Origin: Thermoanaerobaculia bacterium
GTDB taxonomy: Bacteria; Acidobacteriota; Thermoanaerobaculia; Thermoanaerobaculales; Sulfomarinibacteraceae
Direction: 5' to 3'
NCBI GenBank assembly: GCA_027061805.1
Contig: JAMOWA010000014.1
Coordinates: forward strand, 1 to 58,413
Length of the DNA: 58,413 bases
The first letter of the stretch is position 1; each line of letters begins with the position of its first letter. The translations under genes were made by a program, and so were the position numbers. Below are positions 2,447-41,784 of this stretch, one piece after another. The notes beneath the pieces were generated by a model. The model was not told the DNA's origin. It did not search any database and saw nothing but the letters and a program-made list of their open reading frames with translations.

Positions 2447-2574
2447 GAACAGGGTCAGGGTCACGGTCAGGGCCAGGGCCAGGGTCGCGGTCAGGGCCAG
2501 GGCCAGGGTCGGGGTCAGGTTCACGATCAGAGTCAAGGGCACGGACACGGACAGGGTCACGGTCAGGAGCGCTC
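2447..2574 (+). repeat. degenerate GGNCAN hexamer array, plus orientation
   Basis: Imperfect tandem units such as GGGTCA, CGGTCA, GGGCCA and CGGACA run directly into the hairpin upstream of the four-helix-bundle gene. The array mirrors the 2285-2425 array. Confidence 0.75.
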
Positions 2575-2726
2575 GGTCATGGCCACCACCGGGTCGTTCG
2601 GAAGGGTACGTAGCCTCCGGGCGTCCCGGCGTCAAGGGCAGGCCTGCGGTCGCTTCGCGACCCTATGACTCCGGGACGCCCGGAGGCTGGGGGGATCGCA
2701 TGAACGACCCGGAGGTGACCATGACC
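2575..2726 (+). promoter_or_regulatory. large nested hairpin enclosing the RBS and start of the four-helix-bundle gene (copy 1)
   Basis: Three nested stems are visible. An outer stem pairs 2575-2599 with 2702-2726 (25 nt, two mismatches). A middle stem pairs 2612-2634 with 2666-2688 (23 nt, one mismatch). A terminal hairpin GGTCGC-TTC-GCGACC lies at 2648-2662. The Shine-Dalgarno (2711-2717) and ATG (2721) of the next gene lie inside the right outer arm, so folding would hide them. A second copy at 24193-24340 keeps the fold with compensatory changes. Confidence 0.75.
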
Positions 2727-3068
2727 CGCACGCGCTCCCACACCGTCGTCCTCGACCTGGCCCTCGAGGCCGCGTCCATCGCCCTGAAGCTGGCCCAGCG
2801 GGTTCCGGTGACGCTCAGGCCCGTGGCCGACCGGCTGGTCCGCTCGGCCTCGTCCGTTCCCTCGAACCTCGCAGAGGGCCTCGGACGACCCGGCCGGGCA
2901 GGAGCCAACCACTGGCGCATCGCCTACGGCTCGGCCCGGGAGGCCGACGTCCAGCTGAGGCTCCTCGCCGGGGCAGGTGCGGTGGATGCGCAGGCGGCCG
3001 CGAGGGCCCTCGACATCCTCGACCAGGTCCGCGCCATCGCATGGAGGCACCTGAACCCCCTCCGGTGA
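2721..3068 (+). CDS. four-helix-bundle protein (23S rRNA IVS / S23-like family), copy 1
   Basis: This small helical protein of 115 residues belongs to the family first seen encoded in 23S rRNA intervening sequences and related to diversity-generating-retroelement accessory proteins. The recognisable core has VRSASSVPSNLAEG (about residues 38-51) and WRIAYGSAREAD (about 65-76). The start is set at ATG 2721 because GGAGGTG precedes it by 3 nt. An in-frame ATG at 2700 lacks a ribosome-binding site. A paralogue lies at 24335-24694 behind the same hairpin. The cellular role of standalone members is unknown. No rRNA or reverse transcriptase is adjacent here. Confidence 0.82.
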   Translation: MTRTRSHTVVLDLALEAASIALKLAQRVPVTLRPVADRLVRSASSVPSNLAEGLGRPGRAGANHWRIAYGSAREADVQLRLLAGAGAVDAQAAARALDILDQVRAIAWRHLNPLR

Positions 3069-3081
3069 GGCGCTCCCCTCC

Positions 3082-3208
3082 CTGTCATCCCGAGCGGAGG
3101 CCCGCAGGGCCGGAGTCGAGGGATCTCCCGGACGAAGCCGGAGTCGTCCGGTTCCGGGGGTGCTCCACGGACGGGGAGATCCCTCCACTCGCTCGGTCGG
3201 GATGACAG
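3082..3208. repeat. palindromic CTGTCATCCCGAGCG-type dispersed element
   Basis: The left end CTGTCATCCCGAGCGGAG is mirrored at the right end as CTCGGTCGGGATGACAG. Internal GAGGGATCTCCC and GGGGAGATCCCTC also pair. This matches the widespread TGTCATCCCGAGCG dispersed repeats known from many bacterial genomes; its function is unknown. Confidence 0.6.
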
Positions 3209-3220
3209 TGTGGGAATCGG

Positions 3221-3302
3221 GGCCACGTTCACGGACACGGACACGGTCAGGGACGGGGTCAGGGTCAGGGTCACAGTCAGGGTCGGTGTCGGTGGCAGGG
3301 GT
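3221..3302 (+). repeat. degenerate GGNCAN hexamer array
   Basis: Tandem imperfect units (CGGACA, CGGTCA, GGGTCA) run for about 80 bp, about 240 bp upstream of cysS and 125 bp upstream of a TTTCACG array in the same orientation. Confidence 0.7.
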
Positions 3303-6182: not shown

Positions 6183-8387
6183 CTACCAGCGCCAGGTCCA
6201 CCGCAGCTTCACCACGAAGCTGTCCGCCACCGGAACCAGGGACCACTCCGTGCGGTCCCCCACCGGGCGCATCCACCCGTGGTTCCAGACCACGAAGAGG
6301 TCCCGGCCCGGCCGTATGGTCCAGCGGAAGCGGTTGTTCATCCCGAAGTCCCGGGACCCGGAGTCGTACTGGGAGTAGCTGGAGAGGATCAGGTCCGGCG
6401 TGAACGCCCACACCAGCTTGAGCTGCCACAGCCGCTGGGCGAAGTTTCCCTGGGGAAGGTGACCGAAGTTGTTCTCGGCGGTGATCTCGGTCTGGAAGTG
6501 ACCCGTGGGCGTGGTCCACGTGAAGAACGTCTCGTACTGCTGGAGGTCGCCCGTGTAGAAATCGCCGAACCACACCGTGGCACCCACCCTCCAGGAACGG
6601 TGCCTGGAGGTCTGGGCCTCCACCCGGTACCGCGTGAAGTGATAGTCCCCCGGAGGGATCACGATTCCCTCGGCCACCTCGAAGGGCCCGGTGAGGCGCT
6701 CGAACTGGGGTACCCAGTTGGCCTCGATGTGCTCCCCCGTCTCCAGCTGCACGTTGAGCGGCGCCGTGAAGACTCGCCAGGACTCCACGTTCCCGTCCAG
6801 GTCCGTCACACAGGTATTGAAAAACTCGAAGTAGAACTGGCGTGCCCAGCCGAAGGTTCCGTCCTTCGAGGGCCGGGGCTGGTAGGCCCCACCACCCTGG
6901 TACCACCGTGTACCAGGGCGCGGCAGGAACCCCAGCGCGGGGTCCAGGGCGTCCCCGAACTCCCTGAAGGTGAGGAAGACATCCCACAGATCGTTGGGGT
7001 AGTCCACCTTGAGGCCCCAGCCACTCCGCCTCCCGTCGGAGACGTCACCCCGGCTGAACGCCGCCCACCCCCCCACCGAGAAGTTCTTGTCGCCCCTGAA
7101 GGTGGAGGTCCGCCACACGGCGTCCAGTCCCACCAGCGTGTTGTCCCGGACCCCCTGGGGGTCGCCGTCTGTGACGATGGTGCCCACGGTGAGGTGCTCG
7201 TCCACGTCGTAGGTCACCCGTCCGGCAAAGAGGTTGGTGCTCCTCGTCTTCGCCGTGCCGCCCATGGTGGTGTCAAGCAGGCCGATGCTCCACCGGCCCA
7301 CCCGTCCCAGGAGCTTCGCACCTGCCAGGATGGGAACCTGCCCCCCCTCGAAGAGCCCCACCCTGCGGGAGAAGAAGGGAATGAAGTCGCGGCTCAGGCC
7401 GGACCCGAAGGAGAACAGGTCCGAGCCCTCCAGGAAGAAGGAGCGTTTTTCGGGAAAGAACAGGGCGAAGCGCGTGAGGTTGATCTTCCGGGTATCCACC
7501 TCGGTCTCGGCGAAATCGGTGTTGATGGTGAGGTAGCCGGTGAGGTCGCGGGTGAGGTTCCACGTGGCGTCGCCCCCCGCATCGCCCTGGACCGTGTGGT
7601 GATGGCTCTCCAGGTCATTTTCCGACCGCACCAGCCCGAAGGGGCTCACGCTGAATCCCAGGCCCTGCCGCAGGCCGCCCACCCCCAGGAGAACCCCGGC
7701 TCGCTGGAGATCGGTGAGCCGTGAGTCCAGGGTCGGGCTCGCCCACCTGAGCGTGAGTCGTTTCCGGGCAACGTACCGCTCCATGTTGAAGCCCCAGCGG
7801 TCCAGCCCCCACCGGAAGCGAAGGGTCTGGGCCGGGACCCGGATCTCGGCCACCCACCCCTCCGGTGTCCGCCGGGCTCGCGCGTCCCAGATACCGTCCC
7901 AGTTGGTCGAGAAGTCCTCCGGACCAGCCACCAGGCCGTCGAGCCGCGCACCGGCTGCATTCACCTTGAACAGGTACCCCCGCCGTCCGTCGCCCGTGGT
8001 ATCCAGCACCACCGAGACCGTGTCGTCCCCCCGCATGTTGCCGTCCCGGAGCATGGTGTGGATGGCAACTCCGGAGGGATCGGGATCGTGGCAGACGAAA
8101 CCCAGGTACAGGGCCCGGCCATCCACCATGAGCCGCACCTCGGTGGTGAAGGGGGTGGACTCTCCGGGATGGGGGTCCTGCTGCGTCAGATCCCGGATCA
8201 CGGCGGCCCTGGACCACTCAGGCTCGTCGAGCCGCCCGTCGATCCGGATGGAGCCCTCGACCACAGGTGCCGTGACCACCCTGCCGGCCTCCTGGCACCG
8301 GGCCTGGGCAACGGGGAACAGGCCCATCACGGCCATGAAGACTCCAGCGACCCCTGCCGGAACGTGTGCTCTTCGGTGTCTCCGCAT
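6183..8387 (-). CDS. CBM9-like / DUF5916 outer-membrane protein
   Basis: The protein has 734 residues. An N-terminal signal peptide (about residues 1-30) is followed by a carbohydrate-binding family 9-like module: IRIDGRLDEPEW near residue 47, then SVVLDTTGDGRRGYLFKVNA and WVAEIRVPAQTLRF. The rest is rich in alternating beta segments of the DUF5916 barrel type, containing FALFFPEKRSFFLEGSDLF, and ends in aromatic strands (VVKLRWTWRW). It probably sits in the outer membrane. The substrate is unknown. Such proteins are frequent in Bacteroidota and Acidobacteriota. Its 3' end faces palindromic element P copy A. Confidence 0.82.
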   Translation of the reverse strand: MRRHRRAHVPAGVAGVFMAVMGLFPVAQARCQEAGRVVTAPVVEGSIRIDGRLDEPEWSRAAVIRDLTQQDPHPGESTPFTTEVRLMVDGRALYLGFVCHDPDPSGVAIHTMLRDGNMRGDDTVSVVLDTTGDGRRGYLFKVNAAGARLDGLVAGPEDFSTNWDGIWDARARRTPEGWVAEIRVPAQTLRFRWGLDRWGFNMERYVARKRLTLRWASPTLDSRLTDLQRAGVLLGVGGLRQGLGFSVSPFGLVRSENDLESHHHTVQGDAGGDATWNLTRDLTGYLTINTDFAETEVDTRKINLTRFALFFPEKRSFFLEGSDLFSFGSGLSRDFIPFFSRRVGLFEGGQVPILAGAKLLGRVGRWSIGLLDTTMGGTAKTRSTNLFAGRVTYDVDEHLTVGTIVTDGDPQGVRDNTLVGLDAVWRTSTFRGDKNFSVGGWAAFSRGDVSDGRRSGWGLKVDYPNDLWDVFLTFREFGDALDPALGFLPRPGTRWYQGGGAYQPRPSKDGTFGWARQFYFEFFNTCVTDLDGNVESWRVFTAPLNVQLETGEHIEANWVPQFERLTGPFEVAEGIVIPPGDYHFTRYRVEAQTSRHRSWRVGATVWFGDFYTGDLQQYETFFTWTTPTGHFQTEITAENNFGHLPQGNFAQRLWQLKLVWAFTPDLILSSYSQYDSGSRDFGMNNRFRWTIRPGRDLFVVWNHGWMRPVGDRTEWSLVPVADSFVVKLRWTWRW

Positions 8388-9229: not shown

Positions 9230-11108
9230 GCTGGCGGCGGCGTTGCTCCTGGGCATCCTGGCGCTCGCCGCACCCCTGCTCCCCCTCTCCGTTCACGCCT
9301 CGCCGGATACCGTCCGCCTCGCGGGGGCCCTGGCGGCAGGGGTCGCACTGTTCCTGTTCACCACCCTTGTGGTCGGCCCGGAGATCCTCGTGGAGAACCT
9401 CATCACAGGGCGGGAGGGCTTCCACCTGGCCCGCCCCGTGGGGGCACTCCAGCTCTGGGCGGGACGCATGGCCGCGGTCCTTGTGGTGTCGCTCGCCACG
9501 CCCCTCCTGGCCCTCCTGCCCGCCGGGCTGCTGGTGGGCGTGGGGGAGGTCGGAGATGCTGTGACCGACCCCTCGCTGTTGTACCCGGCGCTCCTGGTCC
9601 CGGCAGCCGTGACCGCGGCGGCCCTCGTCCGCCTCATGGTCCGGGTCCGGTCGCCCTGGGTGCTGGTTCTGCTCTCGGGGATCGTGGGGGCCGGGTGGGC
9701 CTGGTACGCCTGGATCCTGGTCCCGTCCATCCGCGTCACTTTCGCCGCCTTCCGGGTATGGCCCCTGCTGGCCTCTCCCGTTTCCTGGTCCCTGGCCCTG
9801 CTGGCCGGCAGTGCCGCCGCTGCGGTGCGGGGCAGGCTCGACCCCTCGAGGGCTTCCGCTGCCGGCGCCGTGACTTCGGTGGCACTCCTCGCCCTGTCCA
9901 CGGTCCTGTTCGTCGGTACCTTCCGCTGGGCCCTCGCCGCCGGACCCTCCCACATCCAGCGAATCACCCTCGCCACCAGCGCTCCGCGGGGGCCGTGGGT
10001 GACCGTCCTGGGGACTGTCCGCCGGGCCGGCCTGCGTTTCAGGACAACCTTCCTCACCGACGTACGGCGGGGACTGTGGGTGTCCCGCCAGGACATCATG
10101 GGAGGCGTATGGAACCTGGCCTTCAGCGGCGACGGCCACCGGGTCGCCATCTCCAGCCTGGGCTCCCCAGCGTCGCGCGAAGGCCCCGAACTGGTCAGTG
10201 TGCTGGAGCTGCCCTCGGGTCCGGACGGCCGCCCCTCGCCCCTGCTGAGCCTCGGGCTCCCGGAGAGGCCCCTGCAGCTGGCGCTCTCACCGCAGGGAAC
10301 CCGGCTCCTCGCCCTGTTCGGGGACCACCTCACCGTGTGGGACACGGACACGGGGGCCCCAGTGACCCGGGCCCGTGGGGCCACCACGGGCAACCTGCTG
10401 GCCCTGGTGGACGACGACGGAAGCGTCTGGCTCGTCCTGCCGTCCGAAGGCCACGGAAACTGGAGGGCCTCCGGGGTGAGGGTGGCGAGGATCGGGCCCG
10501 GTGACCGGTTCTCCTCGCCCGTGTGGCGGCTCGAGACCCGCTCCCCCAAGCTCCACATCCTCCACCCCGCCGGAGATCCCGGCGGGGAGGTGGTGGCACT
10601 CGCGGTGCGTGGCGCCGATGAAACCCGATGGATCACCATCCGCCGGCTCCGCACCGGCGAGGAGCTGTGGCGGAGCCCACTCCCGGACACGAACGCGCCG
10701 CTCCAGGTTCTACCGCTGGAGCCGGAGCGCGTGCTGGTCCTCGTGGCCAGCACGAAGCAGGGGGTCACCATGGTGCGGCTCGCCACCCCGGCCGGCACCG
10801 CCTGGTCCAGTGAGGTGGAGGGCAGGGACCGGGTCCACGCGGTGCCCGGCCCCCGGGAGGGAACGGCCCTGCTGTGCTGGGACCTCGAGCCCGGGCCGGC
10901 CTTCCGGAAGCCACGGACCGCGCTCCTGGACCTGTCCACCGGCGAGACGACCCCCCTGGGTGACGGCCTGCGGCCCGCCGCGATCCCGTGGCTCCACAGG
11001 ACCCTTCCCCAACCGGGCACCCCGGGTTCCCGGCTCCTGATCCGCGAGGAACGCGAGCTGGTCCTCCTGGGGGAGGGAGGCTCGCTCGTTCCCGTGCCCC
11101 TCCGTTGA
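9228..11108 (+). CDS. ABC-2-like permease with C-terminal propeller-like domain (N-terminus probably lost)
   Basis: The frame of 626 residues begins at GTG 9228. The first 230 residues hold about six hydrophobic segments, starting with LAAALLLGILALAAPLLPL. The C-terminal 370 residues form a soluble beta-rich region with repeated WD/propeller-like blades (FSGDGHRVAIS, LSPQGTRLLALFGDHLTVWD, VTMVRLATPAG). Such permeases normally follow an intact ATPase. Here the ATPase is deleted and the permease opens directly in its first helix, so it may lack its natural N-terminus. Whether it is expressed is uncertain. Confidence 0.6.
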   Translation: MLAAALLLGILALAAPLLPLSVHASPDTVRLAGALAAGVALFLFTTLVVGPEILVENLITGREGFHLARPVGALQLWAGRMAAVLVVSLATPLLALLPAGLLVGVGEVGDAVTDPSLLYPALLVPAAVTAAALVRLMVRVRSPWVLVLLSGIVGAGWAWYAWILVPSIRVTFAAFRVWPLLASPVSWSLALLAGSAAAAVRGRLDPSRASAAGAVTSVALLALSTVLFVGTFRWALAAGPSHIQRITLATSAPRGPWVTVLGTVRRAGLRFRTTFLTDVRRGLWVSRQDIMGGVWNLAFSGDGHRVAISSLGSPASREGPELVSVLELPSGPDGRPSPLLSLGLPERPLQLALSPQGTRLLALFGDHLTVWDTDTGAPVTRARGATTGNLLALVDDDGSVWLVLPSEGHGNWRASGVRVARIGPGDRFSSPVWRLETRSPKLHILHPAGDPGGEVVALAVRGADETRWITIRRLRTGEELWRSPLPDTNAPLQVLPLEPERVLVLVASTKQGVTMVRLATPAGTAWSSEVEGRDRVHAVPGPREGTALLCWDLEPGPAFRKPRTALLDLSTGETTPLGDGLRPAAIPWLHRTLPQPGTPGSRLLIREERELVLLGEGGSLVPVPLR

Positions 11109-12870: not shown

Positions 12871-12945
12871 GGGCACGGACGGGGTCAGGGTCGGGGCCAT
12901 CGACACGGACACGGACACGGACACGGACGGCATCACGATCGGGGC
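12871..12945 (+). repeat. degenerate GGNCAN hexamer array
   Basis: Units GGGTCA, then five near-perfect CGGACA copies, then CGATCG variants. It lies upstream of the TTTCACG array and the radical-SAM gene. Confidence 0.7.
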
Positions 12946-13235: not shown

Positions 13236-13266
13236 CGTTTCACCTTTCACGTTTCACGTTTCACGA
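13236..13266 (+). repeat. TTTCACG heptamer array upstream of the radical-SAM gene
   Basis: Four heptamers (TTTCACC, TTTCACG, TTTCACG, TTTCACG) end about 70 bp before the next start codon. The preceding CTCATTCG is shared with the cysS array. Confidence 0.65.
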
Positions 13267-24054: not shown

Positions 24055-24076
24055 CCGTGGGTGTCGGCGGCGGAGG

Positions 24077-24190
24077 GCGGCGGCGGAAGACGGCGGCGGA
24101 AGACGGCGGCGGAAGACGGCGGCGGAAGACGGCGGCGGAAGACGGCGGCGGAAGACGGCGGCGGAAGACGGCGGCGGAAGACGGCGGCGG
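24077..24190 (+). repeat. 13-bp tandem repeat array
   Basis: About 8.7 copies of GGCGGCGGAAGAC, nearly identical, run directly up to the left arm of the second hairpin. Because 13 is not a multiple of three, any translation cycles through all frames; it is not taken as coding. There are no spacers, so it is not a CRISPR array. Confidence 0.9.
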
Positions 24191-24192
24191 TT

Positions 24193-24340
24193 GGTCACCT
24201 CCGGGTCGTTCTGTCATGAGAGGCCTAGCTTCCGGGCGCCCCGGCGTCAAGGGTGAACCTGCGGCCGCTGCGCGGCCCTTGACTCCGGGGCGCCCGGAAG
24301 CTGAGGGGCCTCCATGAACGACCCGGAGGTGACCATGACC
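24193..24340 (+). promoter_or_regulatory. large nested hairpin enclosing the RBS of the four-helix-bundle gene (copy 2)
   Basis: The outer stem pairs 24193-24211 with 24316-24334 (19 nt, perfect). The middle stem pairs 24227-24249 with 24280-24302 (23 nt, one mismatch). The terminal hairpin is GGCCGC-TGC-GCGGCC at 24263-24277. Relative to copy 1, three base pairs changed on both sides (C:G to T:A, T:A to C:G, T:A to C:G), which keeps pairing. The Shine-Dalgarno (24325-24331) lies inside the right outer arm and the ATG (24335) directly follows it. Confidence 0.78.
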
Positions 24341-24694
24341 CACGCCCTTCCAGCCAACCACCCCCTTGACGCCGTCAACCTCGCCATGGAGGCCGCTGCC
24401 ATCGCACTGGCTCTGGCACGCAGGGTGCCCGCGCCATTAAGGCCCGTGGCAGACCAGCTCATCCGGGCTGTGAGCTCCGTCCCCGCCAACCTCGCCGAGG
24501 GCCATGGGCGCACTGGCAGGGACCGCTACCACCACTGGCGCATCGCCTACGCCTCCGCAAAGGAGGCCGATATCCACCTCCGTCTGCTCCTCGGAGCTGG
24601 TGCTGTCGATCCCGAACGGGCCACCACCGCCCTCTCCCTCCTCGACCGCTCCCGCGGCGCCACCTGGAGGCTCCTCCACCCGCCCATTCCGTAA
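24335..24694 (+). CDS. four-helix-bundle protein (23S rRNA IVS / S23-like family), copy 2
   Basis: This protein of 119 residues is paralogous to the gene at 2721. It shares VSSVPANLAEGHGR, HHWRIAYASAKEADIHLRLL and LGAGAVDPERA. ATG 24335 follows GGAGGTGACC; an upstream in-frame ATG at 24314 has no ribosome-binding site. The proteins have diverged clearly, while the upstream hairpin and the start region are almost the same, which points to selection on the hairpin. It lies in an accessory patch with a restriction-enzyme remnant and transposase scraps. Function is unknown. Confidence 0.8.
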   Translation: MTHALPANHPLDAVNLAMEAAAIALALARRVPAPLRPVADQLIRAVSSVPANLAEGHGRTGRDRYHHWRIAYASAKEADIHLRLLLGAGAVDPERATTALSLLDRSRGATWRLLHPPIP

Positions 24695-24765: not shown

Positions 24766-25055
24766 GCCCCCGCTCACCGTCGCTGCGTTCCGAAGAAGGA
24801 CGCGCCTGCACCCCGAGAAGAACCCCGTGGAAGCGGGTGCTTCAGCGCCCGCCCCCAGCTCCGTGACAGGGTCACGGCCACCGGCGCTGTCACGACCACG
24901 AACACCCTCACCGGCACGGCACGCGGCTATTCTGACCCCATGGAGCCCGGATACGAGACGCCCGCCGGGGAAAGGACCAGGGACGCACCATTCGATAACA
25001 CTCGCTACCTGCACACGGCACCTTTCCTTTCTGTCACGCTCTCCATCTCATCATG

Positions 25056-25186
25056 TTACTAAGGCGAAGGAAAGCATCCCGACACAGACGACTGGCAATC
25101 TCAAGATTGCCGGGGCGTTCTTGCACCGATGACTGGCCATCGGAGTCCTGGCGGCTCGGTCTGGTGCGTTTCGTTCCCCTTAGTAA
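25056..25186 (+). mobile_element. MITE with TTACTAAGG terminal inverted repeats, copy 1
   Basis: This 131-bp element starts TTACTAAGG and ends CCTTAGTAA. The termini pair over about 21 bp with a few mismatches (GAAGGAAA against GAACGAAA). Inside are the perfect hairpin GGCAATCT-CA-AGATTGCC and CCGATG/CATCGG. It has no coding capacity of its own but stays open in one frame that joins the following endonuclease fragment. A second copy in inverted orientation is at 58296. No clear target-site duplication is visible. Confidence 0.85.
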
Positions 25187-25748
25187 AAACTGGGACGTGC
25201 TGGTCATCCATCGCCACAGGCTCCTGGCGACCTTTGAGCTCAAGTCCCAGGTAGGTTCCTTCGGCAACAACTTCAACAACCGCTCCGAAGAGGTCATCGG
25301 CGCCGCGGCCGACCTCTGGGCTGCTCACCGGGAAGGTGCGTACTTCCCTGAGAACGCCAGCACCACCCGAAATGACTCAGTTTCCGAGCCCCGCGAACCG
25401 CTCCTCAACCCGAACGTTCAAGACGACCCGAGACCACCCTTCCTCGCCTGGCTCATGCTCCTGGAGGATTGCCCCACGTCACGTGGACCAGTCGGAGTTG
25501 ACGAACCCCACTACCGAACTTTCCCCGAATTCACCGGCGCGTCTTACGCCGAACGCTACCGCATCCTCTGCGAGCGCCTTATGACCCGCCGCCTTTATGG
25601 CGCCGCCGCCCTAATTCTCTCCGAAAGAAATGCCGGTGGCACTTCCGGTCATTTCAATACCCTCTCCGAGCCAACCAGCATCCGCTCCCTCTTCGCCGCC
25701 TTCGCCGCCAAGCTCCTGGCAGAGCTTCCCGAGGGTATACGGTACTGA
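25187..25748 (+). pseudogene. PaeR7I/XhoI-family type II restriction endonuclease, N-terminally truncated
   Basis: The frame from the MITE edge encodes about 187 residues matching PaeR7I/XhoI: NWDVLVIHRHRLLATFELKS with the D...ExK nuclease motif, VGSFGNNFNNRSEEVIGAAA, LAWLMLLEDCPTSRGPVGVD and FPEFTGASYAERYRILCERL. Intact members are about 245 residues. Some 60-70 N-terminal residues are missing, replaced by the MITE, and I see no matching code upstream of it. No cognate adenine methyltransferase is present. An open frame does run in from an ATG at 25053 through the MITE, but loss of the N-terminus makes activity unlikely. Confidence 0.82.
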
Positions 25749-25894: not shown

Positions 25895-25942
25895 GCACGG
25901 ACAGGTTCAGGGTCACGGACAGGGGCAGGGACAGGGACGGGC
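25895..25942 (+). repeat. degenerate GGNCAN hexamer array
   Basis: A short run of CGGACA, GGTTCA, GGGTCA and GGGACA units. The surrounding 25749-26080 shows nothing else I can name. Confidence 0.55.
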
Positions 25943-27096: not shown

Positions 27097-27126
27097 CGTT
27101 TCACGTTTCACCTTTCACGTTTCACG
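27097..27126 (+). repeat. TTTCACG heptamer array upstream of arsR
   Basis: Four heptamers (TTTCACG, TTTCACC, TTTCACG, TTTCACG) end 57 bp before the ArsR start and 20 bp before its -35. Confidence 0.65.
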
Positions 27127-41390: not shown

Positions 41391-41421
41391 CGTTTCACGT
41401 TTCACCTTTCACGTTTCACGA
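41391..41421 (+). repeat. TTTCACG heptamer array (41.4 kb, first)
   Basis: Units TTTCACG, TTTCACC, TTTCACG, nearly identical to the arsR-upstream array including the following AACGGGCGG. Confidence 0.6.
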
Positions 41422-41450: not shown

Positions 41451-41556
41451 GGACAGGTCCACGGTCACGGTCAGGGTCACGATCACGGTCAGGGTCACGA
41501 TCACGGTCGGGGGCGGAGTCACGGTCAGGGGCGGGGACAGGGACGGGGACGGGATC
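41451..41556 (+). repeat. degenerate GGNCAN hexamer array
   Basis: About 100 bp of CGGTCA, GGGTCA, CGATCA and GGGACA units. The 41241-41913 gap holds only this array, two heptamer arrays and the palindromic element; no gene is seen. Confidence 0.75.
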
Positions 41557-41753: not shown

Positions 41754-41784
41754 TCGTTTCCCGTTTCACGTTTCACGTTTCACG
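41754..41784 (+). repeat. TTTCACG heptamer array upstream of tldD-like gene
   Basis: Four units (TTTCCCG, TTTCACG, TTTCACG, TTTCACG) end 129 bp before the next start codon. Confidence 0.65.

Follow-up and report, generated by a model that had tools for sequence, protein, structure and literature searches.

The hairpin and the IVP gene at two places of the window

The window, a stretch of 58,413 nucleotides, is contig C14 of the 3.1 Mb draft genome G000 (Thermoanaerobaculales, Acidobacteriota), which is 96.9% complete. It carries two copies of a unit of approximately 500 bp, here called the element, that reaches from the left arm of a long nested hairpin to the stop codon of a gene for a four-helix-bundle protein of the IVP (S23) family (Table 1). 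The outer stem of copy 1 is an inverted repeat of 25 nt (2575-2599/2702-2726, 92%) that encloses an inner one of 23 nt (2612-2634/2666-2688, 96%). The corresponding repeats of copy 2 measure 20 nt (24192-24211/24316-24335, 100%) and 27 nt (24227-24253/24276-24302, 96%). Folded as RNA, copy 1 reached -104.3 kcal/mol (z -9.5) and copy 2 -124.7 kcal/mol (z -14.4), and no shuffled sequence folded as well in either case. With DNA parameters the z values were -9.3 and -14.1, close to those obtained for RNA. The nested hairpin and the second copy reported in a preliminary description of this DNA are thus both present as inverted repeats that fold far beyond shuffled sequences. Rfam contained no family covering the hairpin at gathering score, the only match being a sub-threshold one to a miRNA.

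Table 1. Features of the two element copies and adjoining repeats (positions in the window)
Feature	Position	Strand	Basis
Copy 1, outer stem left arm (left end of the element)	2578..2599	+	inverted repeat; alignment columns 1-22
Copy 1, GTAG foot and inner stem left arm	2610..2634	+	inverted repeat; NTAG in 37/42 copies
Copy 1, core GTCAAGGG ... terminal hairpin GGTCGCTTCGCGACC ... TGAC	2631..2669	+	near-invariant columns, 42-copy alignment
Copy 1, inner stem right arm	2666..2688	+	inverted repeat
Copy 1, outer stem right arm, last base of codon 1 to codon 8	2702..2723	+	inverted repeat; alignment
Copy 1, GGAGG within outer right arm	2711-2715	+	GGAG invariant in 42 copies
Copy 1, IVP four-helix-bundle gene, 122 aa from ATG 2700	2700..3068	+	PF05635 6.5e-11, TIGR02436 4.3e-11
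Copy 1, stop codon of the gene (right end of the element)	3066-3068	+	copy-to-copy homology ends there
Copy 2, outer stem left arm	24193..24211	+	inverted repeat
Copy 2, inner stem left arm	24227..24253	+	inverted repeat
Copy 2, inner stem right arm	24276..24302	+	inverted repeat
Copy 2, outer stem right arm, with GGAGG and second ATG (24335)	24316..24337	+	inverted repeat
Copy 2, IVP gene, 126 aa from ATG 24314	24314..24694	+	PF05635 2.8e-12; homologues in own genome
Hexamer array (CAGGGT)n near left end of copy 1, possibly part of the element	2450..2567		repeat search
13-base array (CGGCGGCGGAAGA)x9.7, abuts left end of copy 2	24065..24190		repeat search

Alignment of the two copies confirmed all three base pairs that had been described as changed on both sides, namely C-G to T-A in GCCTCC/GGAGGC, T-A to C-G in GCGTCCC/GGGACGC and T-A to C-G in the terminal hairpin. 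It also agreed with the earlier statement that the gene diverged more than the hairpin, as 119 of 145 bases are identical in the hairpin compared with 239 of 339 in the coding sequence behind it. Both proteins passed the curated cut-offs of PF05635 (42.8 and 47.3 bits, cut-off 33.8) and TIGR02436 (43 and 45.7 bits, cut-off 24). A structure model of the window protein (pLDDT 92) was predicted to resemble the IVP structures 2GSC and 2RLD, with a weaker match to Avd of diversity-generating retroelements (4DWL and 8UB7). Within sequence groups dN/dS amounted to 0.15-0.22, indicating purifying selection on the IVP protein. We know of no catalytic site in IVP proteins. Going by the copies inspected, the flag '1 TGA' attached to several relatives is their regular stop codon.

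The start of the copy 1 gene had been placed at 2721, where an ATG is indeed found, but an in-frame ATG further upstream at 2700, conserved in all copies, had been missed; in copy 2 the conserved ATG at 24314 is likewise in frame with that at 24335. Due to the conservation of this upstream start, the right arm of the outer stem is at the same time N-terminal coding sequence (codons 2-8; MNDPEVTM). Among 42 aligned copies both GGAG and the second ATG, which lie inside the outer stem, were invariant. Codons 3, 4, 6 and 7 varied despite the invariant GGAG, with P, T, Q or R encoded by codon 4 and V, E, K or N at position 6. As GGAG stays constant while the codons that it touches differ, the Shine-Dalgarno sequence of the second start is itself selected, within the stem.

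Copies, ends and flanking repeats

A covariance model search detected 29 distinct hairpin places in the window's genome, which also contains 23 strong homologues of the gene (E up to 1e-12) and weaker ones besides. Dozens of further copies were found in related genomes. The element copies split into four sequence groups, A to D. In a scan of 84,980 species, close relatives were mostly from metagenome-assembled genomes of Thermoanaerobaculales or Holophagae (Acidobacteriota), with 0 to 18 gene copies per related genome. Hairpin or gene occurred in 16 of the 19 other genomes of the family and in one genome of a neighbouring family; the hairpin was present in 16 family genomes, the window's own included, and one neighbouring-family genome, and in G004 it was found without the gene. 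The rest of the order had neither hairpin nor gene, and a sample of 149 genomes from the whole phylum contained no hairpin in any other family. Many of the copies lie at the ends of draft-assembly contigs, and additional gene-less hairpins at contig ends in G015, G014 and G006 were left out of the gene-less count. Plasmid and viral sequences yielded one and four weak matches, respectively, none of the element's clade, and PADLOC and PHROGs gave no matches.

The copies are located at unrelated intergenic places, and two of them form a tandem pair on contig C57. Flanking DNA is common to different species in few copies only. In a tree of 61 proteins, the nearest neighbour belonged to the same genome for 47. 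Between copies within subfamilies dS was approximately 0.3-0.5; thus, no very recent movement is seen in the window's genome.

Homologues without a hairpin, which would speak against a fixed pairing of hairpin and gene, do exist as ordinary PF05635 genes, yet they form a different clade. Upstream inverted-repeat scores of 30 such genes from the phylum ranged from 6 to 12, compared with 15 to 38 for 35 element copies, one scoring 10. By these scores the ordinary IVP genes lack the hairpin, including the tested gene L248 on contig C56 of the same genome. Intact members of the element's IVP clade with readable upstream sequence carry it. Contig C56 harbours three ordinary IVP genes within 10 kb (1196-1507, 7667-7984 and 10227-10535).

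Homology within groups starts at the outer left arm and runs to the stop codon, ending sharply at both. What follows past the ends is mostly unrelated sequence, low-complexity repeats or a dispersed repeat of another kind. Of 45 copies, 18 had a tandem array with a unit of their own in the 100 bp left of the element, and 9 of 54 had one to the right, compared with 0 of 120 control stretches. The neighbours of the window copies are protein genes (a PF00551 formyl transferase and the XhoI family), and no rRNA gene matched in the flanks of 20 copies.

Several further repeats were observed. The strongest arrays of the window lie left of the two element copies. Intergenic arrays of hexamer type (GGTCAG/GGACAC) occur at 2298-2567, 3224-3284, 12902-12928, 25896-25938 and 41460-41530; the hexamer arrays of relatives have other units, e.g. 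GGCAGC. Short intergenic CGTTTCA arrays are located at 13236-13265, 27097-27126, 41391-41420 and 41755-41784. A palindromic dispersed repeat (TGTCATCCCGAGCGGAGG...GGGATGACAGTG) follows copy 1 directly (3071-3219) and is also found after copies L014 and L017. In G010/Prado016, another repeat (GAGCACCGCTGCTCACC...) takes the place of the 5' half of the element in L110, L112, L113, L114 and L116. The junction is similar at several of these loci, which looks like a spread of the chimera as a whole. Next to copy 2 lies a gene for an XhoI-family restriction endonuclease (25053-25748; PF04555, 1.1e-46), which contains a 40-nt imperfect inverted repeat (25056-25186).

Covariation of the stems

A total of 42 hairpins were aligned (alignment A4), with 22 pairs in the outer and 28 in the inner stem. 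Across the copies 91.7% of the cells pair, compared with a mean of 77.7% after shuffling. Thirty of the 50 pairs, 10 in the outer and 20 in the inner stem, have changed on both sides (shuffled mean 19.6), and 276 cells show double changes (shuffled mean 88). None of 500 shuffled alignments reached the observed values, and sliding the partners against each other left 31 to 71 double-change cells. One-sided changes are rare relative to two-sided ones. Conserved primary sequence is restricted to the TAG foot, GTCAAGG/CCTTGAC, GGAG and the two starts. Pairing is therefore kept when more copies are compared, and the conserved module of hairpin and gene with covarying stems, which the preliminary description had based on two copies, is strongly supported by 42.

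A structured RNA usually accepts G·U pairs but not A·C mismatches. Among rows with well-aligned arms we counted 18 G·T and 53 A·C cells; as the A·C count is raised by a few columns that many copies have inherited, our statement is limited to the lack of a G·U excess. A tRNA control for this comparison yielded four tRNAs only and was set aside. Judged from the alignment, the lack of a G·U excess and the small number of one-sided changes would suit a DNA palindrome, its arms changing in step, better than a plus-strand RNA device.

Probable mobility of the element and alternative explanations

Copy L078 of G014 sits after the terminator of a gene. In the congener G002 its flanks lie approximately 90 bp apart, without hairpin or gene. 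This is the one empty site that was resolved. The insert also includes repeat tracts on both sides, one of hexamers and one of another repeat, so that neither the precise ends nor a target duplication can be read there. Upstream of cysS in relatives no unit was found, which is a weak test as gene order differs there. At three loci of the window's own genome (C26, C65 and C59) the hairpin runs directly into the 3' end of the gene, the middle being deleted; C26 and C65 have an identical junction, and similar internal deletions were seen in L216 and L221 of other genomes. Block duplication of such gene-less copies is possible, as they share approximately 150 bp or more past the element. Taken together, the unrelated intergenic sites, the empty site and the hairpin-only derivatives at three loci resemble the behaviour of a mobile element, and the same unit at unrelated sites together with an empty site is what is generally asked of a transposable element. 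The element presumably moves by transposition. Between control of translation and a transposable module, the two functions considered previously, the latter fits best the 29 hairpin sites, the patchy distribution, the empty site and the gene-less derivatives.

On balance, the element probably is a compact selfish mobile element of approximately 500 bp with a palindromic left end and a single IVP (S23/Avd-like) gene. On the left it ends in a DNA palindrome that is long, nested and near-perfect, on the right with the gene. Extruded or single-stranded, the palindrome could be the end that the IVP protein recognises, and the protein may bring it to a strand-transfer enzyme that the host or a different element provides in trans; copies of the hairpin alone could be mobilised as passengers. 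As the outer stem covers the Shine-Dalgarno sequence and the second start, read-through transcripts would be translated poorly and expression kept low. Most likely, the buried ribosome-binding site damps expression from read-through transcripts. Expression is likewise kept low in several insertion sequences. In ISPpu9, a leader structure is reported to bury the ribosome-binding site of the transposase (PMC8450116). Insertion sequences of this type share with the element the structured 5' leader over the ribosome-binding site; in contrast to them, the element has no transposase, and no terminal inverted repeats at both ends were found. MITEs resemble it as internal-deletion derivatives that keep the ends, but in the element the hairpin lies at one end only and the parent has no recognisable transposase.

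Within the element there is no nuclease, recombinase or reverse transcriptase. Avd of diversity-generating retroelements has the same fold (4DWL, 8UB7), but no reverse transcriptase (PF00078) was found in G000, a 96.9% complete draft. Y1 transposases of the RAYT type occur in most family genomes. By their distribution, both reverse transcriptase and Y1 transposase were ruled out as consistent partners. A tentative and bolder form of the mobile-element reading, possible but with the odds against it, is an autonomous new class in which the IVP/Avd-like bundle, in place of a classical transposase or reverse transcriptase, would be the sole mobility protein encoded by the element, acting on a one-ended DNA palindrome.

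Four other explanations were weighed. The hairpin might be the 5' leader of the IVP mRNA and act as an RNA operator at which IVP represses its own translation by keeping the Shine-Dalgarno sequence and the starts within the stem, the gene family having spread by ordinary duplication and transfer. Conservation of GGAGG and the second ATG in the stem at the nucleotide level, the very strong fold and the action of protein relatives such as Avd in ribonucleoproteins (8UB7) are consistent with this idea. The conserved GGAG and second ATG lend partial support to the earlier suggestion of translational control. Against it are the lack of a G·U excess over A·C, the few one-sided compared with 276 two-sided changes, the persistence of gene-less hairpins at several loci and the upstream start that had been missed. 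Furthermore, L007 and L009 of group C and the copies of G022 keep a stem without the GGAGG Shine-Dalgarno sequence and the second ATG, and a promoter scan detected no sigma-70-like promoter near the hairpin. An antisense promoter candidate in the inner stem (minus strand; TTGAC, 17 bases, TA), assessed by eye, was rejected, its second box not being promoter-like and the scan being empty. We consider such an operator unlikely. Still less probable is a large REP-type element moved by Y1/RAYT, with IVP hitchhiking or auxiliary. The element does resemble REP/REPtron (RAYT) sequences in being palindromic and intergenic with a GTAG-like foot; of the 42 copies, 37 have NTAG at the inner-stem foot and 21 have GTAG, and REPs carry GTAG at one end, where RAYT cleaves (PMC3733652). 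However, it is a nested palindrome of approximately 145 nt with its own gene and no RAYT attached, and its stems are far longer than the 5-13 bp of REP stems. Neither of the two Y1 loci of G000 has the element's palindrome, three carriers (G006, G009 and G018) gave no Y1 match at the threshold used, and copy number does not track Y1 number.

An old, non-mobile host gene family with a conserved leader could also have been dispersed as repeat-rich intergenic DNA was rearranged and segmentally duplicated. The sharp stop of homology at the left arm and the stop codon, the patchy copy number (0-23) and the empty site make this quite improbable, despite the tandem pair on C57, the sites common to different species and the deep divergence among copies. 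The lowest probability is given to a stand-alone derivative of a 23S rRNA intervening sequence (IVS), whose hairpin RNase III would excise from any transcript, so that insertion would be nearly neutral. The 23S rRNA IVSs of Coxiella and Leptospira with their S23p/IVP ORF do combine a PF05635 protein with a long stem-loop, and IVSs are stem-loops with an IVP ORF that are cut by RNase III (PMC4990558). On the other hand, the terminal stem of an IVS encloses the ORF, whereas the stem of the element lies ahead of the gene, whose first codons form part of the pairing. In addition, the element lies outside rRNA (none of 20 copies) in many dispersed copies, and its protein is under purifying selection and has a strong conserved Shine-Dalgarno sequence.

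IVP/S23 proteins are widespread and, to our knowledge, have no known function. How intervening sequences spread is a long-standing question. The IVS of Coxiella (428 nt) is regarded as selfish (PMC4990558), and an old proposal, as quoted there, sees in IVSs either leftovers of transposition or mobile elements with an ORF that helps them move. Our literature search covered open-licence papers, so that the lack of an earlier description is no proof of novelty. If mobile, the element would be unusually small for its kind and, in addition, lack a recognisable transposase. In this family, dozens of natural copies share fixed ends, a candidate binding site is defined, hairpins occur with and without an intact gene, and the protein is under selection, which makes the question of IVP and IVS mobility directly testable in a free-standing element. 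If an autonomous IVP-only element is indeed at work, this would explain the IVP genes inside rRNA intervening sequences.
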